This document shows positions 1,615-6,447 of a stretch of DNA of 15,164 nucleotides, piece after piece; position 1 is the first letter of the stretch; each line of letters opens with the position of its first letter. This stretch comes from Pyrinomonadaceae bacterium. GTDB taxonomy: Bacteria > Acidobacteriota > Blastocatellia > Pyrinomonadales > Pyrinomonadaceae. A program made the translations under genes and the position numbers. The notes under the pieces were generated by a model. That model made no database searches. It saw nothing but the letters and a program-made list of their open reading frames with translations, and had not been told where the DNA came from. The stretch covers positions 1-15,164 of the forward strand of contig JACCRA010000570.1 of the NCBI GenBank assembly GCA_013813825.1. The letters run 5' to 3'.

Positions 1615-2334
1615 ATGAAGTCTGAGAAAATTTCGGAGTTGACGACGAACCGTCTGAGCGTTTATCTGCGCTGCCTGAATTTGTTGGCCGACGCCGGCGT
1701 GAAAACCATCTCCTCGCAGGCGCTCGCCGATCAGTTTAATCTCAATTCGGCGCAAATTAGAAAAGACCTCGCGCACTTCGGCGAGTTCGGCGTGCGCGGC
1801 GTCGGCTATTTCGTCGAGGAGTTGCGCCAGCACATCACAAAGATTCTGGGACTGGATAGCGCGCGCCGCGTCGGCATCGTCGGGGTGGGGAACTTGGGGA
1901 CGGCGCTGGCGAATTACAACGGCTTCACGGCGTCGAACTTCACGGTGGTCGCGCTGTTTGACAACGACCGGGAGAAGGTTGGTTGCCGCGTCGGCCGCGC
2001 CGGCATTGTGGTGCATGACGTGCGGAAGATGGCACGCGTAGTGCGCGCGGAAGGAATTGATGTGGCTGTCATCGCCGTGCCCGCGCGCGTCGCGCAACGT
2101 GCCTTGAATCAAGTGATGTCGGCGGGCGTCAAGGCCGTCTTAAACTTCGCGCCAGTCCGCTTGCACGCGCGCCTCGACGTCAAAGTGAAAACGGTCGATC
2201 TGACCATCTCGCTTGAATCGCTCTCGTATTACCTCGCCCGCCCGCAGATCACCTGCGTGACGAACCCGCGCAGCATCCTGCCCTACGAAGAGATCGCGCA
2301 GCGGGAAGAGAATGAACTGAAGGGCGAAGCCTGA
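1615..2334 (+). CDS. rex: Rex, redox-sensing transcriptional repressor
   Basis: Rex represses fermentative and respiratory genes and leaves DNA when the NADH/NAD+ ratio rises. The 239-aa product has the N-terminal winged helix (about 1-80), with a recognition region around SSQALADQFNLNSAQIRKDL (33-52) and the typical HFGEFGVRGVGY (54-65). A Rossmann NAD(H) domain follows with GIVGVGNLGTAL (87-98) and ALFDND (113-118). The C-terminal swapped helix contains SLSYYLA. The ATG at 1615 has the SD at 1595-1604; the longer open frame runs through the repeat and is not Rex-like. Only 11 bp separate it from the next gene, and it heads a tight run leading into a microcompartment locus. NADH sensing would suit redox metabolism there, but cotranscription is inferred from spacing. 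Confidence 0.95.
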   Translation: MKSEKISELTTNRLSVYLRCLNLLADAGVKTISSQALADQFNLNSAQIRKDLAHFGEFGVRGVGYFVEELRQHITKILGLDSARRVGIVGVGNLGTALANYNGFTASNFTVVALFDNDREKVGCRVGRAGIVVHDVRKMARVVRAEGIDVAVIAVPARVAQRALNQVMSAGVKAVLNFAPVRLHARLDVKVKTVDLTISLESLSYYLARPQITCVTNPRSILPYEEIAQREENELKGEA

Positions 2335-2345
2335 AAGGAATTTTT

Positions 2346-2642
2346 ATGAACGAAGACCCCACTCACAATTTGCCGCAACCATTTGAGGAACGTGTGTTGG
2401 CCGAACTTAGGGCTATGCGCGGAGAGTTATCGACGATGAACACACGCTTGACCTCACTTGAAGAAAAAGTTGACGCACGCTTACGCGAGACGCGACCGAT
2501 TTGGGAAGGCGTGCAGGCTCAACTGACAAGATTGGAGACGGAGATGAAGACTCTGAATCGACATTTCAAATCGCTAATCAACGACATGTTCAAGCTGCGC
2601 TCGCTCGTCGAAGAATTAGAGGATAATCAGCCGGCAGCTTGA
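2346..2642 (+). CDS. Small coiled-coil protein, function unknown (98 aa)
   Basis: The protein is highly charged and almost entirely helical. Hydrophobic residues spaced by three and four (AELRAMRGEL, RLTSLEEKVDARL, LTRLETEMKTLNRHF) predict a coiled coil over about residues 15-90. No signal peptide or membrane segment is seen. The segment DARLRETRPIWE is, from memory, common in small unannotated acidobacterial proteins; this is recollection, not a search. An SD-like AAAGGA precedes the ATG by 7 bases. It lies 11 bp after rex and 10 bp before the TonB-C gene, so it is probably cotranscribed. It could be a scaffold or oligomerisation partner; nothing in the sequence gives a specific role. Confidence 0.75.
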   Translation: MNEDPTHNLPQPFEERVLAELRAMRGELSTMNTRLTSLEEKVDARLRETRPIWEGVQAQLTRLETEMKTLNRHFKSLINDMFKLRSLVEELEDNQPAA

Positions 2643-2652
2643 AGGGGAAATT

Positions 2653-3072
2653 ATGAAGTCTGTTGCTAAAAGGGCTATACCGTTTGCGCTTGCTGGTTTG
2701 TTGGGAGTTGCTCTGTCCGCCGTATCCTTTTGGCGTACACCTCAGCCTGCAACAGAGTTGGTCTGTCGCTTTACTGAACCTGCCCTGTTGATACCCGCCG
2801 AGATAGTTTTTAAGCCCGAACCGATGTTCTACACGAACTGGGCGCGCGCACACAATTACTCAAGCATCGCCCGCGTGCAAGTTACACTGGGCGCAAATTA
2901 CCTTGTTTCAGACGTCACGCTGTTAACGCCTCTGCCGGAAGAAGTCGCGGGTGAAGTGCTCAATGTGGCAAGAAGTATTGAATTCATCCCGGCGTTAAGG
3001 AATGGTACGCCGGAAGAAAGCACGGTCATAGTTGAATACAAACTCGACGGGCGGCCAAAAGGTAGTGGCTGA
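2653..3072 (+). CDS. Membrane-anchored TonB C-terminal-domain protein (139 aa)
   Basis: The N-terminus is basic (MKSVAKR) and followed by one hydrophobic segment (about 9-27), either a signal anchor or an uncleaved signal. The rest fits a TonB C-terminal fold: KPEPMFYTNWARAH (about 55-68), IARVQVTLGANYLVSDVTLL, then RSIEFIPALRNGTPEESTV and VEYKLDG. Unlike true TonB it has no long Pro-rich periplasm-spanning region, and no ExbB or ExbD is nearby. Short single-domain versions are frequent in Acidobacteriota. A GAAGGGG SD lies 5 bases before the ATG. It sits 10 bp after the coiled-coil gene and 8 bp before the aldolase. A role in envelope energy transduction is not established; the domain call rests on motif resemblance. 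Confidence 0.75.
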   Translation: MKSVAKRAIPFALAGLLGVALSAVSFWRTPQPATELVCRFTEPALLIPAEIVFKPEPMFYTNWARAHNYSSIARVQVTLGANYLVSDVTLLTPLPEEVAGEVLNVARSIEFIPALRNGTPEESTVIVEYKLDGRPKGSG

Positions 3073-3080
3073 TTCAGAAC

Positions 3081-3908
3081 ATGGATGAACAAACCGCCAG
3101 ACGCGAGATCGTCCGCGTCGGAAAGCTACTGTACGAGCGTGGCTACGTCGTCTCTTCGGACGGCAACGTGAGCGTGCGTCTTGACGACGGGCGGATCGTG
3201 GCGACGCCGACGCAGACCGGCAAGGGGCGGATGACGGAAGACTCGCTCGCCGTCACGGACAGCGAAGGCAAGGCGCTCAACGACCGGAAGGCTTCGAGCG
3301 AGTTGGCGATGCACTTGCTCATTTATCGCGAGCGGCCGGAAGTGAAAGCCGTCTGCCACGCGCACCCGCCGCACGGCTCGGCGTTCGCCGTCGCGGGATT
3401 GGCAATCGATCAGCCGATCCTGTCGGAAGTGATCTTAACTTTAGGCTGCGTCCCGCTCGCCGAATACGGCACGCCTTCGACCGATGAACTGACGGAAGCG
3501 ATGCGTCCGCTCGTCAAGCACCACAACGCGCTTTTGATGGCGAATCATGGCGCGGTTGCCTACGGCGCGGACGTGTGGCAGGCGTTCGACCGTTTAGAAA
3601 CTTTGGAACACACGGCCAAGATCGCGATCCTTGCGCGCGCCCTCGGCGGCGCAAAAAATCTGCCGCCCGATGCGATTGAGAAACTGATTCACGTCCGCGA
3701 AAAGGCCGGCTACTTGGACGAGCGTGCCCGCTGCCAATCGTGCGGCTACCTGCACGAAACGCGGATCACTTGTCCCGCCGGCGACGGCGTGGCTCAAGCC
3801 CCACCGCCCCGCGCCGCTGCGGCGGCGGCAAACGGCGCTGGCAAAATCAACTTGACGCGCGAAGAACTGATCGAGTTGTTGAGTCAAGCCGCGCGACTAC
3901 GCGGGTGA
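3081..3908 (+). CDS. Class II (fuculose-phosphate type) aldolase with C-terminal encapsulation-type peptide
   Basis: This family cleaves sugar phosphates such as fuculose- or rhamnulose-1-phosphate to DHAP and lactaldehyde, using Zn2+. Visible landmarks are the phosphate-binding SSDGNVS (25-31), catalytic Glu74 in SSELAMH, zinc ligands His93 and His95 (CHAHPPHGSA), and His156 (NHGAVA). After the roughly 210-residue core come CQSCGYLHETRITC (Cys218, Cys221, Cys231), an Ala/Pro-rich linker (about 236-255) and a terminal amphipathic helix INLTREELIELLSQAARL (256-273). Linker plus helix is the architecture of BMC cargo targeting peptides and is known for aldolases of planctomycete PVM-type compartments. 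Shell genes follow directly. The start has no clear SD but follows the previous stop by 8 bp. The substrate cannot be read from sequence. Confidence 0.9.
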   Translation: MDEQTARREIVRVGKLLYERGYVVSSDGNVSVRLDDGRIVATPTQTGKGRMTEDSLAVTDSEGKALNDRKASSELAMHLLIYRERPEVKAVCHAHPPHGSAFAVAGLAIDQPILSEVILTLGCVPLAEYGTPSTDELTEAMRPLVKHHNALLMANHGAVAYGADVWQAFDRLETLEHTAKIAILARALGGAKNLPPDAIEKLIHVREKAGYLDERARCQSCGYLHETRITCPAGDGVAQAPPPRAAAAAANGAGKINLTREELIELLSQAARLRG

Positions 3909-3915
3909 GCGCCGT

Positions 3916-4527
3916 TTGAGACTGAGCGAATACAGGGAGTCTCTCTGGGGCGGACGCCGTCACCGCCCGCTGACCCGTAGCGAAGAACTGCTGGCGCGTA
4001 AAGTCTTCGCCGCGTCCTTGCCTTACGATTGCGTCCGTTTCGCCGACGCTTACCTGCCGGGCATCGACGTCCCCGTGACGCTGGCCTCCACGCCTTTCAG
4101 ACGACGGACGATCTACACGATCCATTGGGGCGACGGAGATGTCTTCGACAAGGGCGCGGACGCCTGCGGCAATGACGAGCGCGCGAGCCTGATTCACGAA
4201 CTGACGCACGTGTGGCAAGGTCATCACGGCGCTTTCGCGCAAGGCTACATGCTCAAGTCGTTCGCCGCACAAGGCTTTCACGGCGTCCGGGACGTGATGA
4301 CAGCGCGGCGGTGGCGCGGGTGGGCGTGCCATCGCCGGCGGGCTTACGACTACACGCGCAAACTCGGCCAGTCGTGGAAAAGTTTCAATGTCGAGCAGCA
4401 AGCGGCCATCGTTGAAGATTGGTTCCGCGAGTGGATGAAGAGCGGTCTGACAGAAGCGGGAGAGCCGACCGGCGACGCCCGCCATGCCTACATCGAGCAG
4501 CACATTCGCGCGCGCAGTGGCCGGTAA
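3916..4527 (+). CDS. HExxH zinc metallopeptidase-like protein within the BMC run (203 aa)
   Basis: The core motif is LIHELTHVWQG (92-102), a classic HExxH zinc site (His94, Glu95, His98). A plausible third ligand is Glu167 in EQQAAIVEDWF (160-170), after an aromatic stretch (AYDYTRKLGQSW). This order resembles the HELTHV(V/W)Q proteins found near eCIS/DUF4157 and Rhs/Vgr genes. There is no signal peptide or membrane segment, so it appears cytosolic. No ATG or GTG exists between the upstream in-frame stop and the peptidase-like region; TTG at 3916, preceded by GGGTGAG, is the best start. It begins 7 bp after the aldolase stop, which suggests translational coupling. Substrate is unknown; processing of compartment cargo or shell is speculation. 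Confidence 0.8.
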   Translation: MRLSEYRESLWGGRRHRPLTRSEELLARKVFAASLPYDCVRFADAYLPGIDVPVTLASTPFRRRTIYTIHWGDGDVFDKGADACGNDERASLIHELTHVWQGHHGAFAQGYMLKSFAAQGFHGVRDVMTARRWRGWACHRRRAYDYTRKLGQSWKSFNVEQQAAIVEDWFREWMKSGLTEAGEPTGDARHAYIEQHIRARSGR

Positions 4528-4626
4528 CGCGGCGGATTCAGAGTCCGCGTGTCGTTTGTGGTAATCTTGCCGCCGTTCCTGTGAAGGTGTTAAAAATCGG
4601 ATCGGTAGTGTTAAGGAGAATGACGA

Positions 4627-4908
4627 ATGCAAGAAGCACTTGGAATGGTCGAGACAAAAGGTCTCGTAGCGATGATCGAGGCGGCGGATGCGATGGTCAA
4701 AGCCGCGAACGTGACACTGGTCGGCTACGAAAAGATCGGCGCGGGATTCGTTACCGCCATCGTGCGCGGCGACGTGGCGGCAGTTAAAGCGGCGACGGAC
4801 GCGGGAGCGGCGGCGGCGCGTCGCGTCGGCGAATTGGTCAGCGTCCACGTCATCCCGCGCCCGCACGGCAGCGTGGACGAAGCCTTACCGATTGGTAATA
4901 ACAGCTAA
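4627..4908 (+). CDS. BMC-H hexameric microcompartment shell protein (93 aa)
   Basis: This is a single-domain BMC shell protein that would form the hexagonal tiles of a microcompartment facet. Diagnostic segments are [21 protein letters not shown] (3-23 region), the conserved edge Lys25 in VKAA, the pore loop KIGAG (36-40, the usual form being KIGSG), the helix [14 protein letters not shown] (47-60) and the closing [10 protein letters not shown] (71-80), where Arg78 is a conserved edge residue. Length is typical, with a short polar tail. A strong AAGGAG SD (4613-4618) lies 8 bases before the ATG, the best SD in the run, consistent with the major shell component. About 100 bp separate it from the metallopeptidase gene, so an internal promoter is possible. 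Confidence 0.95.
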
Positions 4909-4911
4909 CAG

Positions 4912-4973
4912 CCGTGACCAGTAACGAGAGGCCGGTGACAAGTTTAAGACTTCTTGCTCGTCACTCGTCACTG
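4912..4973. repeat. Inverted-repeat element B between BMC-H and first BMC-P genes
   Basis: The left arm has GTGACCAGTAACGAG (4914-4928) and the right arm CTCGTCACTCGTCAC (4958-4972). These are complementary at 13 of 15 positions, and the right arm shows a 7-bp period (CTCGTCA, CTCGTCA). The element fills the short gap between two shell genes and ends 7 bases before the ATG of the next gene, replacing any SD. Confidence 0.7.
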
Positions 4974-4979
4974 CTTTTT

Positions 4980-5255
4980 ATGATTATCGCGCGCATCCTC
5001 GGCACCGTCGTTTCAACGCAGAAGGACGGGCGGCTGCAAGGCCGGAAACTCATGCTCGTTCGCCCGCTAAATCTCGACGGGACGGACGCCGGTAACAGCT
5101 ACTTCGTCGCGGTCGATACGGTCGGCGCGGGCTTTCACGAGCGCGTCTTAGTCGTTGCCGGCTCCAGCGCCCGCCTCGCCGAAGGTTTGAAAGACCTGCC
5201 AGTCGATGCCGCGATTGTCGGCATCATCGACACGGTCGATATCGTTGATGATTAG
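4980..5255 (+). CDS. BMC-P (EutN/CcmL family) pentameric vertex protein 1 (91 aa)
   Basis: Pentamers of this family cap the vertices of microcompartment shells. The product begins MIIARILGTVVST and continues with GRKLMLVRPLNLDG, the conserved YFVAVDTVGAGFHERVLVV and the closing DAAIVGIIDTVDIV, all in family order and at the usual length of 85-100 aa. The open frame reaches back to 4914, but that part is the translation of repeat element B, so the ATG at 4980 is chosen. No SD is visible, because the preceding bases are repeat arm plus a T-run. This may lower its translation, which would suit a minor vertex component; that is inference. Confidence 0.93.
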   Translation: MIIARILGTVVSTQKDGRLQGRKLMLVRPLNLDGTDAGNSYFVAVDTVGAGFHERVLVVAGSSARLAEGLKDLPVDAAIVGIIDTVDIVDD

Positions 5256-5262
5256 AGCGACC

Positions 5263-5307
5263 AGCTTTCAGCCGTCAGCGATCAGGTTTAAACCAAAGCT
5301 GATTGCT
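5263..5307. repeat. Heptamer inverted-repeat element C
   Basis: Tandem heptamer units AGCTTTC, AGCCGTC and AGCGATC occupy 5263-5283. AGCGATCAG (5277-5285) pairs with CTGATTGCT (5299-5307) at eight of nine positions across a 13-base loop that contains the palindrome GTTTAAAC. It lies between the first and second vertex-protein genes and could form a hairpin in the mRNA. No T-run follows, so it is not an obvious terminator. Confidence 0.6.
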
Positions 5308-5360
5308 TGAAGTGGTTTTGATTTGATGAGTGTGGTGGCACGGTTTGGCTGAAGGCTAAG

Positions 5361-5654
5361 ATGCAACTCGCGCGGGTCATCGGGACGGTGGTGGCGACAG
5401 TGAAGAACGATTCGCTGGAGGGGCGCAAGTTGCTCATCATCCAGTCGCTCGACGCCGGTTTGCTGCCGCAGGGGACGCCGCTTGTGGCGCTCGACGCCGT
5501 CGGGGCGGGCGTCGGCGAATTAGTCTTCTGGTGTCGCGGGAAAGAGGCGAGCTTTCCGTTCCGGCGCGAGGACACGCCGACCGATTGCACCATCGTCGGC
5601 ATCGTTGATTCAGAGCGGCACGTCACCACGCCCGGGAGCCGGCGGCGGAGATGA
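5361..5654 (+). CDS. BMC-P (EutN/CcmL family) pentameric vertex protein 2 (97 aa)
   Basis: This is a second vertex-protein paralogue. It begins MQLARVIGTVVATVKN and has LEGRKLLIIQSLD, then PLVALDAVGAGVGELVFWCRG and DCTIVGIVD. The C-terminal tail TTPGSRRRR is strongly basic and absent from its two neighbours. GAAGG (5351-5355) is placed 5 bases before the ATG. The stop overlaps the start of the next gene in an ATGA, which implies translational coupling. Three divergent BMC-P copies in one locus are typical of PVM-type compartments, where the paralogues probably occupy different vertices or mixed pentamers. That functional split is known only in outline. Confidence 0.93.
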   Translation: MQLARVIGTVVATVKNDSLEGRKLLIIQSLDAGLLPQGTPLVALDAVGAGVGELVFWCRGKEASFPFRREDTPTDCTIVGIVDSERHVTTPGSRRRR

Positions 5655-5944
5655 TCATCGCGCGCGTGATCGGGAACGTCGTGGCGACGCAGAAGAACGA
5701 GCGTTATGAGAACGCGCGCGTAATGCTCTGCCAACCCGTCGATCTCGCCGGAAGAGAGACGGGCGCGACCTTGATCGCGCTCGACACGGTGGACGCGGGC
5801 GTGGGCGATCTGGTGATGATTGTGCAGGAAGGGTGGGGCGCTTCGACGGCCGCGACCGGAGAGCCGGGCGCGGCGATTGACTCGGCAATTGTCGGCGTGG
5901 TGGATGACATCGACTTATTACCGGAAGAGCAGAGAACAAGATGA
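5651..5944 (+). CDS. BMC-P (EutN/CcmL family) pentameric vertex protein 3 (97 aa)
   Basis: This is the third vertex-protein paralogue. It begins MIIARVIGNVVATQKNE and continues with ARVMLCQPVDLAG, then TLIALDTVDAGVGDLVMIVQEG and DSAIVGVVDDIDLL. The segment GWGASTAATGEPGAAIDSAIVG agrees best with canonical CcmL/EutN members (EGSSAR-like loop, then D-AIVGI-D). It starts within an ATGA overlap with vertex protein 2 and ends within an ATGA overlap with the next gene, so the three are almost certainly translated from one message. The tail is acidic and polar (LLPEEQRTR), in contrast to the basic tail of protein 2. Confidence 0.94.
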   Translation: MIIARVIGNVVATQKNERYENARVMLCQPVDLAGRETGATLIALDTVDAGVGDLVMIVQEGWGASTAATGEPGAAIDSAIVGVVDDIDLLPEEQRTR

Positions 5945-6447
5945 GCCATGAGTTGGAAGAGGAGCGGGCGCGGACGCTGGCCGCGCGCGTCGCCGGACGA
6001 CTGGCGCGGGGCACAGCGGCGGCGACGACAGCGGCAGGCAGTGCTTCGTCGGCTGACGAAAATGCTGGCGGCCTCGGTCGCGAGTTGGCCGCGCTGCGCG
6101 CCGGATTGAGCGAGATCAAACAGCGCCTCGCCCACCTCGAATCCCATATCGTCGGCGAGGCCGAATGTAAGCACGAGAATGATGCTAATGGGTGGTTAAC
6201 TCCGCTAGTGGCGGCAGGGACACATCGCCGTACAGCGTCCAACGCGGAGCCGGCCGATGCCTCCTCGCCGCTCCGCTGGACGAGCAGCACTTACATTCCG
6301 GTCGTCCCGCCGAGCGAACAGCGTTTCGACATCAACGACGCCGTTTCCGAACTAGCCGATCACTTCGAGCAGGGCAAGACCTGCACGTTAGAGCCGGGCG
6401 GCAAGCCCTGCGATCACTGCTCGATGTGCAGCACGCGCGGTTTTTAG
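5941..6447 (+). CDS. Unrecognised BMC-linked protein with Cys-rich C-terminus (168 aa)
   Basis: I cannot assign this protein to a family. Residues 1-24 (MSHELEEERARTLAARVAGR and on) form a probable amphipathic helix, followed by an Ala/Thr/Ser linker (25-43). That is the layout of an N-terminal encapsulation peptide. Residues 46-71 (LGRELAALRAGLSEIKQRL) look like a short coiled coil. A disordered middle leads to FDINDAVSELADHFEQG (129-145) and the tail CTLEPGGKPCDHCSMCSTRGF, with Cys148, Cys157, Cys160 and Cys163. The C-x8-C-x2-C-x2-C pattern could bind Zn or an Fe-S cluster. It overlaps the third vertex gene by ATGA and is the last gene before the terminator, so it is firmly part of the locus. 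Cargo, linker or redox protein are all possible. Confidence 0.82.
   Translation: MSHELEEERARTLAARVAGRLARGTAAATTAAGSASSADENAGGLGRELAALRAGLSEIKQRLAHLESHIVGEAECKHENDANGWLTPLVAAGTHRRTASNAEPADASSPLRWTSSTYIPVVPPSEQRFDINDAVSELADHFEQGKTCTLEPGGKPCDHCSMCSTRGF

Follow-up and report, generated by a model that had tools for sequence, protein, structure and literature searches.

A Probable ACI-Like Microcompartment Locus Headed by rex in Pyrinomonadaceae

Introduction

What kind of microcompartment is encoded by a run of genes that opens with the redox sensor Rex, and does Rex control it? The question is raised by a stretch of 15,164 nucleotides (GenBank JACCRA010000570.1; the whole of it was analysed and is called the window in what follows), contig 176 of a Pyrinomonadaceae draft genome (GCA_013813825.1; 78% complete, 819 contigs), in which rex, an aldolase gene and four shell protein genes follow one another on the + strand. 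An original prediction, made from the sequence alone, described a reduced compartment that recalls the PVM type, with expression under redox control. The PVM shell is made of BMC-H and BMC-P proteins without BMC-T, and PVM loci keep aldehyde dehydrogenase (AldDH) and phosphotransacylase in the same locus as the aldolase.

A second type, ACI, has been described from Acidobacteria, mainly of Subdivisions 4 and 6 (Sutter et al. 2021, PMC8217296). According to that paper it combines an aldolase of family PF00596 that carries a C-terminal encapsulation peptide (EP) with a BMC-P triplet, BMC-H and a hydroxyacid dehydrogenase, while AldDH is consistently found on a satellite; PF00596 is also the aldolase family shared by PVM and GRM5 (PMC8217296). 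We consider it rather likely that a Pyrinomonadaceae metabolosome of the ACI-like kind, in the form found in Blastocatellia, has its main locus in the window, which thus belongs to a compartment type that is known and not yet characterised. This judgement applies jointly to the ACI-like identity, to AldDH on a satellite, to Rex as an inherited leader of the operon and to a Rex-independent promoter in this genome.

Results

Compartment type. With the aldolase as query 153 related loci were obtained from named genomes, and the best 80 of these were used for locus counts. Nearly all of the 80 are from Pyrinomonadaceae, Blastocatellia or Acidobacteria/Acidobacteriota, some from gp4, with Pyrinomonas methylaliphatogenes K22 and Aridibacter famidurans among them. 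A locus was taken as testable for the coiled-coil and TonB-C-like genes where more than 3 kb lies upstream (n = 63) and for the shell genes and ORF10 where more than 3 kb lies downstream (n = 59). Genome counts are from a set of 60, including the genome of the window, 47 of which reach a completeness of 90% or more and have no more than 5% contamination. A phylum-wide sample of 247 Acidobacteriota genomes gave an aldolase match in 105 genomes, and six loci from outside Blastocatellia were inspected. The features of the run are as follows.

1556-1585, + strand: promoter-like site of rex, CTGACA-18-TATACT (pattern scan; no Rex operator overlaps it)
1615-2334, + strand: rex, NAD(H)-sensing repressor (NF003995, 254 bits, cut-off 126)
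2346-2642, + strand: coiled-coil protein, lineage-specific (homologue counts in related loci)
2653-3072, + strand: small TonB-C-like protein with a hydrophobic N-terminus (TonB_C, 16.6 bits, below the cut-off of 24.6)
3081-3908, + strand: class II aldolase with a linker and a C-terminal helix resembling an EP (PF00596, 159 bits, 1.5e-46)
3916-4527, + strand: putative metallopeptidase of the HExxH type, lineage-specific insert (HELTH motif)
4627-4908, + strand: BMC-H shell protein (PF00936, 106 bits, 7.3e-31)
4980-5255, + strand: BMC-P shell protein a, BMC-Pa (PF03319, 103 bits, 1.1e-29)
5361-5654, + strand: BMC-P shell protein b, BMC-Pb (PF03319, 102 bits, 1.8e-29)
5651-5944, + strand: BMC-P shell protein c, BMC-Pc (PF03319, 83 bits, 2e-23)
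5941-6447, + strand: ORF10, compartment-linked four-cysteine protein (C-terminal Cx8Cx2Cx2C; conserved next to shell genes)

The shell set of one BMC-H and three BMC-P stands as predicted, with no BMC-T-like protein among the ten proteins of the run that were scanned. The nearest solved structures to the aldolase are aldolases, including fuculose-phosphate aldolases, and E74, H93, H95 and H156, which we take to be the class II catalytic residues, are invariant across seven aligned sequences. The highest scoring NCBIfam models are 3-oxo-tetronate 4-phosphate decarboxylase (149 bits) and then fuculose-phosphate aldolase (103 bits), both far under their cut-offs. At the C-terminus a linker leads to a conserved LTREELIELLSQAA-like end, the putative targeting helix of the original prediction, and the hydrophobic moment of this helix, 0.36, is a value that 24% of shuffles reach.

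AldDH, phosphotransacylase and alcohol dehydrogenase had all been noted as missing, and none of them is in the run; an AldDH fragment is, however, present elsewhere in the genome. In relatives a satellite has the order guaB, rodZ-like HTH gene, BMC-H2, AldDH, and some satellites continue after AldDH with genes for BMC-P4, an ACT-domain protein, a zinc-ribbon protein, DUF711 and BMC-H3. Contig C290 of the window's genome carries guaB, the HTH gene, BMC-H2 and, up to the contig end, approximately the first 40 residues of AldDH. With a threshold of E 1e-80 or better, AldDH is detected in 52 of the 60 genomes; this genome counts among the other eight, as the contig end truncates its gene. The closest NCBIfam model is acetaldehyde dehydrogenase (acetylating), at 593 bits, under its cut-off of 620. 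PduL (PF06130) was found in none of the 60 genomes, the E. coli and T. maritima controls being positive, and no alcohol dehydrogenase was noticed in the main locus or the satellite, no genome-wide search for it having been made. The choice that had been posed, enzymes elsewhere or a shorter pathway, is therefore settled in part: the satellite AldDH means that the pathway cannot be called simply shorter.

Outside the class, the six loci inspected have the order aldolase-BMC-H-BMC-P (x3) without rex in every case, and PF00389/PF02826 is nearby in four (L271, L273, L274 and L276). This points to the window as the Blastocatellia form of an ACI-like compartment, a form that, judged from sequence, is distinguished by rex at its head and by no hydroxyacid dehydrogenase seen.

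A pair encoding DUF711 and the ACT-domain protein was considered as a general replacement for PduL and rejected because it is absent from the sister-clade satellites (0 of 10, L226-L235) and from the four f2, f4 and f6 satellites inspected (L236, L237, L239 and L240). It is present on the satellites of L034, L038, L040 (Pyrinomonas), L043 and L046, and the f5 and f8 stretches have ACT without DUF711. The ACT-domain protein (L034 8391-8864 and relatives) has an N-terminal extension of approximately 65 residues, the second half of which is strongly amphipathic (equalled by 0.04% of shuffles). Because this protein with its amphipathic extension precedes DUF711 in satellites, some members of the family may carry the pair as compartment cargo. 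Two further observations concern satellite genes: AldDH (L034 9348-11120 and relatives) is extended at its C-terminus by approximately 130 residues, the last of which form a conserved EDDVRRAIQKGEKIYV...TIITPAARD-like module, and GuaB of G014 (L043 13804-16647) is split after GPGSIC by an insert of approximately 450 residues that looks intein-like by eye.

Linkage of rex to the compartment. The Rex of the window scores above the cut-offs of three models, NF003995 (1.1e-75), NF003993 (243 bits, cut-off 217) and NF003992 (237 bits, cut-off 226), and its nearest solved relative is Rex of Thermotoga maritima. Twelve DNA-contact residues are described for that protein in PMC8836258, and nine of these, Arg48, Lys49, Arg60 and Gly61 among them, have their equivalents here (R13, S34, Q47, R49, K50, G59, R61, G62 and Y65). 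Rex is above cut-off in 40 of the 60 genomes, in single copy in each, and in 35 of the 40 rex shares a contig with BMC-P (the exceptions are G003, G010, G021, G023 and G035). It is dispensable, since 56 genomes have BMC-P and 16 of these lack a Rex that passes the cut-off. Among named loci rex lies 5' of the aldolase in 64 of the 79 that are testable, L101, L108 and L132 being counted as rex-less and L126 as untestable. In the phylum-wide sample the two genes are within 2 kb in 12 of 12 Blastocatellia that have both and in 0 of 35 other Acidobacteriota that have both, some of whose aldolases may be other class II aldolases. The neighbourhood comparison thus upholds the expectation that rex stays with the aldolase and shell genes in relatives; that rex might adjoin them in this genome only, which the original prediction had named as fatal to its proposal, fails because rex is kept beside the locus in many relatives.

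Such a linkage might reflect inherited gene order only, without a functional tie, and although we think this unlikely it is the most credible of the alternatives to our reading. All 55 testable loci have a divergent ruvA upstream of rex, and 39 of 52 have lemA downstream; the linkage is not found outside the class; and rex is missing from 15 of the 79 loci, which keep aldolase, shell and ruvA, and from the Rex-less genomes with BMC-P counted above. In the aldolase tree a single 24-row clade contains all 15 rex-less rows, and because these need seven state changes rex has probably been lost repeatedly with shell and aldolase remaining. Several observations speak against it. While ruvA flanks rex in the f6 loci L146, L148 and L150, it does not in L147 (G045, f6), L051 (f5) and L151 (f8), and in these three rex-aldolase-BMC-H-BMC-Pa is contiguous nonetheless; Pyrinomonas methylaliphatogenes (G021) keeps rex and aldolase together despite having its shell genes on another contig; and in one clade there is an operator at the rex promoter.

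The Rex operator. Upstream regions were scored against the operator consensus TTGTGAAW4TTCACAA given in PMC2883068. Sites with at most three mismatches occur in 15 of 61 rex upstream regions, as compared with none for the reversed pattern and approximately 0.45 for shuffles. In 14 of the 15 regions the site is at -38 to -52 relative to rex, and every one of these regions comes from the sister clade (41 tree rows) of the window's clade; the fifteenth, in L054, is at -185 and from the window's clade. Because the right half of the operator also resembles a -35 box, the left half-site was scored alone, and in the 12 regions whose right half has at most one mismatch it gives 4.5 of 7 matches against a background of 1.97.

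A second set of sites precedes the gene for an ActA-like multihaem cytochrome (Pfam cytochrome c7), which is present in 59 of the 60 genomes and is, by eye, the first gene of an alternative complex III operon. The best 30 upstream regions were examined, 12 of which were assigned to the sister clade by 68-100% identity to G012 (59-65% for the other 18). Ten of these 12 have an operator with at most three mismatches 150-225 bp upstream of the gene, and the two that do not are G007, which is Rex-less, and the Rex-bearing G015; the draft of one operator-bearing genome, G031, shows neither Rex nor BMC-P. Two of the other 18 regions have a site of this quality, at other positions, and the control pattern gives 1 of 30. 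Four genomes have a site with at most one mismatch 8-48 bp upstream of a UDP-glucose dehydrogenase gene (L179, L181, L182 and L186; Pfam for L181), one has such a site upstream of a cytochrome bd gene (Pfam), and several of the 20 such sites inspected fall within genes or 5' of unrelated genes.

In the window's own genome the best site in the 200 bp upstream of rex has 6 of 14 mismatches, with no operator at the promoter; the best site upstream of the actA-like gene has four mismatches and a different position; and the assembly has no operator site with one mismatch or fewer. A 3-mismatch site at 4579, 48 bp before BMC-H, was dropped, as it is not conserved and only L130 has a similar one besides the window. 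Redox-controlled expression of the compartment, as originally proposed, is therefore not borne out in this genome, operators at the rex promoter and the actA-like gene having been found in the sister clade only. To judge from these sites, the sister clade is likely to have a Rex regulon that covers both rex and this operon; for the window's clade such a regulon is not supported. In this species Rex is an old neighbour that probably no longer switches the compartment operon.

It is conceivable that Rex controls the compartment in this genome as well, by way of a diverged operator or of a site elsewhere such as that at 4579. In favour of this, the gene heads the run, no second Rex gene was found in the genome, three quarters of the DNA-contact residues are kept (9/12) and the link to the aldolase persists in genomes with other flanks. 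Set against the mismatches at the rex promoter and before the actA-like gene, the lack of conservation at 4579 and the lack of any near-exact site in the assembly, we regard it as improbable, and somewhat less credible than inherited gene order.

Organisation of the run. The rex, coiled-coil, TonB-C-like, aldolase and HExxH reading frames are located where they had been predicted, with gaps of 11, 10, 8 and 7 bp, and are followed by 99 bp before BMC-H. The gap from BMC-H to BMC-Pa is 71 bp if the latter starts at ATG 4980, where the matches of relatives begin, or 5 bp from GTG 4914; BMC-Pa and BMC-Pb are 105 bp apart, and BMC-Pb/BMC-Pc and BMC-Pc/ORF10 each overlap by 4 bp. The start of rex is at 1615, not 1498, relatives starting at 1615 with the promoter-like site just 5'. 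Two promoter-like sites of this kind were found in 5.4 kb where 1.3 are expected, and a -10-like TATA(C/A)T is located 14-42 bp 5' of rex in 50 of 61 upstream regions. The window scan gave no + strand terminator-like site between rex and the aldolase and one weak site, at 4532-4548, in the interval between the HExxH gene and BMC-H; terminator-like sites are no commoner than in shuffles (9 found, 6.7 expected).

Not all of the run is conserved. Homologues of the coiled-coil gene are found in 4 of 63 testable loci (5 of 80 overall) and of the HExxH gene in 5 of 74 testable loci, and both genes are lineage-specific inserts. The TonB-C-like gene has a BLAST homologue in 5 of 63 testable loci (11 of 80 overall), and elsewhere the rex-aldolase gap holds other small proteins with a hydrophobic N-terminus, in families of 27 and 10 loci. 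The names first given to two of these proteins hold to a limited degree, as the TonB-C similarity is weak and below cut-off, and the metallopeptidase has its HELTH motif and no Pfam or NCBIfam family above cut-off. BMC-H and BMC-Pa, by comparison, are each present in 57 of 59 testable loci, BMC-Pb and BMC-Pc each in 56 of 59 and ORF10 in 51 of 59.

In the f5, f6 and f8 loci inspected rex-aldolase-BMC-H-BMC-Pa is contiguous and BMC-Pb and BMC-Pc are elsewhere, an ORF10-like gene adjoining the separate BMC-Pb/BMC-Pc in L050, L153, L154 and L155. The cluster in the window brings together two modules, rex-aldolase-BMC-H-BMC-Pa and BMC-Pb-BMC-Pc-ORF10, that are separate in these families. In families f2 and f6 there is another NAD-related neighbour, a glutamine-dependent NAD synthase gene 3' of BMC-Pa (L047 10414-12153 and L146 9253-10995, both Pfam-checked; similar by eye in L147, L148 and L150).

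ORF10 has no Pfam or NCBIfam match up to E 0.1. It has 290 homologues, and of the 120 matches listed all carry Cx8Cx2Cx2C near the C-terminus and 117 terminate in GF. The layout is that of a probable N-terminal helix, an N-terminal stretch similar among homologues and a variable linker; longer forms with an inserted domain are found in G040 and G058, and a sequence search with the long form of G058 gave no convincing solved relative. One could imagine a metabolosome without the usual internal recycling, in which the NADH made by AldDH is disposed of by an electron path with a metal or iron-sulfur centre on ORF10 inside the shell, while Rex reads the NADH load and switches compartment and respiratory chain together in the operator-bearing clade. 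We mention this as a long shot.

Discussion

The working that we propose starts with the aldolase, which would be drawn into the shell by its C-terminal helix and, judging from its family, would cleave a sugar phosphate to yield a short aldehyde and dihydroxyacetone phosphate. The satellite AldDH, by its family of the acylating kind, would then turn the aldehyde into acyl-coenzyme A (acyl-CoA) and NADH inside the shell. Rex would be the inherited leader of the operon. In the sister clade it probably represses its own promoter, and thereby this operon, as well as the ActA-like respiratory operon, and a rise in NADH would lift this repression. For the window's clade, in which no such operators turned up, transcription of the operon probably starts at a Rex-independent promoter near 1556-1585.

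Several results weigh against this reading. The hydroxyacid dehydrogenase (PF00389/PF02826) of ACI is absent from the ten proteins of the run and, by eye, from the vicinity of the aldolase in the 80 loci; the genome's own AldDH is seen only as a fragment, with 38 aligned residues; and the hydrophobic moment clearly exceeds that of shuffles in one of seven EP-like segments tested, the second segment of the ACT protein. On the side of regulation, operator absence was scored against one consensus, TTGTGAAW4TTCACAA, which might overlook a diverged operator; G015 has Rex yet lacks the operator before its actA-like gene; and genome-wide operator counts do not tell Rex-bearing from Rex-less genomes, as the 40 with Rex give 32 sites (control pattern, 17) and the remaining 20 give 28 (control pattern, 9).

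Eight of those 28 are exact copies of TTGTGAACGCGTTCACAA in a single genome in which no Rex was found (G038, contigs C110, C134 and C149), perhaps a repeat element or the site of another regulator.

A PVM-type fucose or rhamnose compartment whose AldDH, phosphotransacylase and alcohol dehydrogenase are lost or elsewhere would suit the PF00596 aldolase, the BMC-P triplet and the absence of any BMC-T seen, but it is very improbable and the least likely of the alternatives considered, as the nearest known type is ACI, matched by the satellite AldDH and the acidobacterial host, the decarboxylase model outscores that of fuculose-phosphate aldolase (both far below cut-off) and PduL is in none of the 60 genomes.

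Acidobacteria, the hosts of ACI compartments, can make up as much as 60% of soil bacteria (PMC8217296). A rex-headed ACI variant without detectable PduL makes the recycling of CoA and NAD+ without PduL a testable question, on which ORF10, a widely kept and unnamed compartment-linked protein, could bear. Similarly, the sister-clade operator, together with rex-aldolase in the cultured Pyrinomonas methylaliphatogenes, makes control of compartment synthesis by a redox sensor testable.

How does the locus compare with known systems? With PVM it shares the PF00596 aldolase and a BMC-H/BMC-P shell without BMC-T; it differs in having AldDH outside the main locus, in that PduL was not found and in belonging to another phylum. 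With ACI it has in common an acidobacterial host (Subdivision 4 or 6), a PF00596 aldolase, a BMC-P triplet, BMC-H and a satellite AldDH, and it departs from ACI in that the locus in the window is without the hydroxyacid dehydrogenase and has rex at its head. The word Rex is absent from the main text of PMC8217296, and searches of openly licensed papers, supplements excluded, showed none that links Rex to a microcompartment operon, acidobacterial or other, one Clostridia review (PMC11365079) with both terms aside. The Rex regulons of Gram-positive bacteria and Thermotogales offer the other comparison. Residues contacting DNA and NAD are conserved, and the sister clade has the operator TTGTGAAW4TTCACAA upstream of rex and of the genes for the ActA-like cytochrome, UDP-glucose dehydrogenase (four genomes) and cytochrome bd (one genome); the difference is that here Rex is linked to a microcompartment operon.

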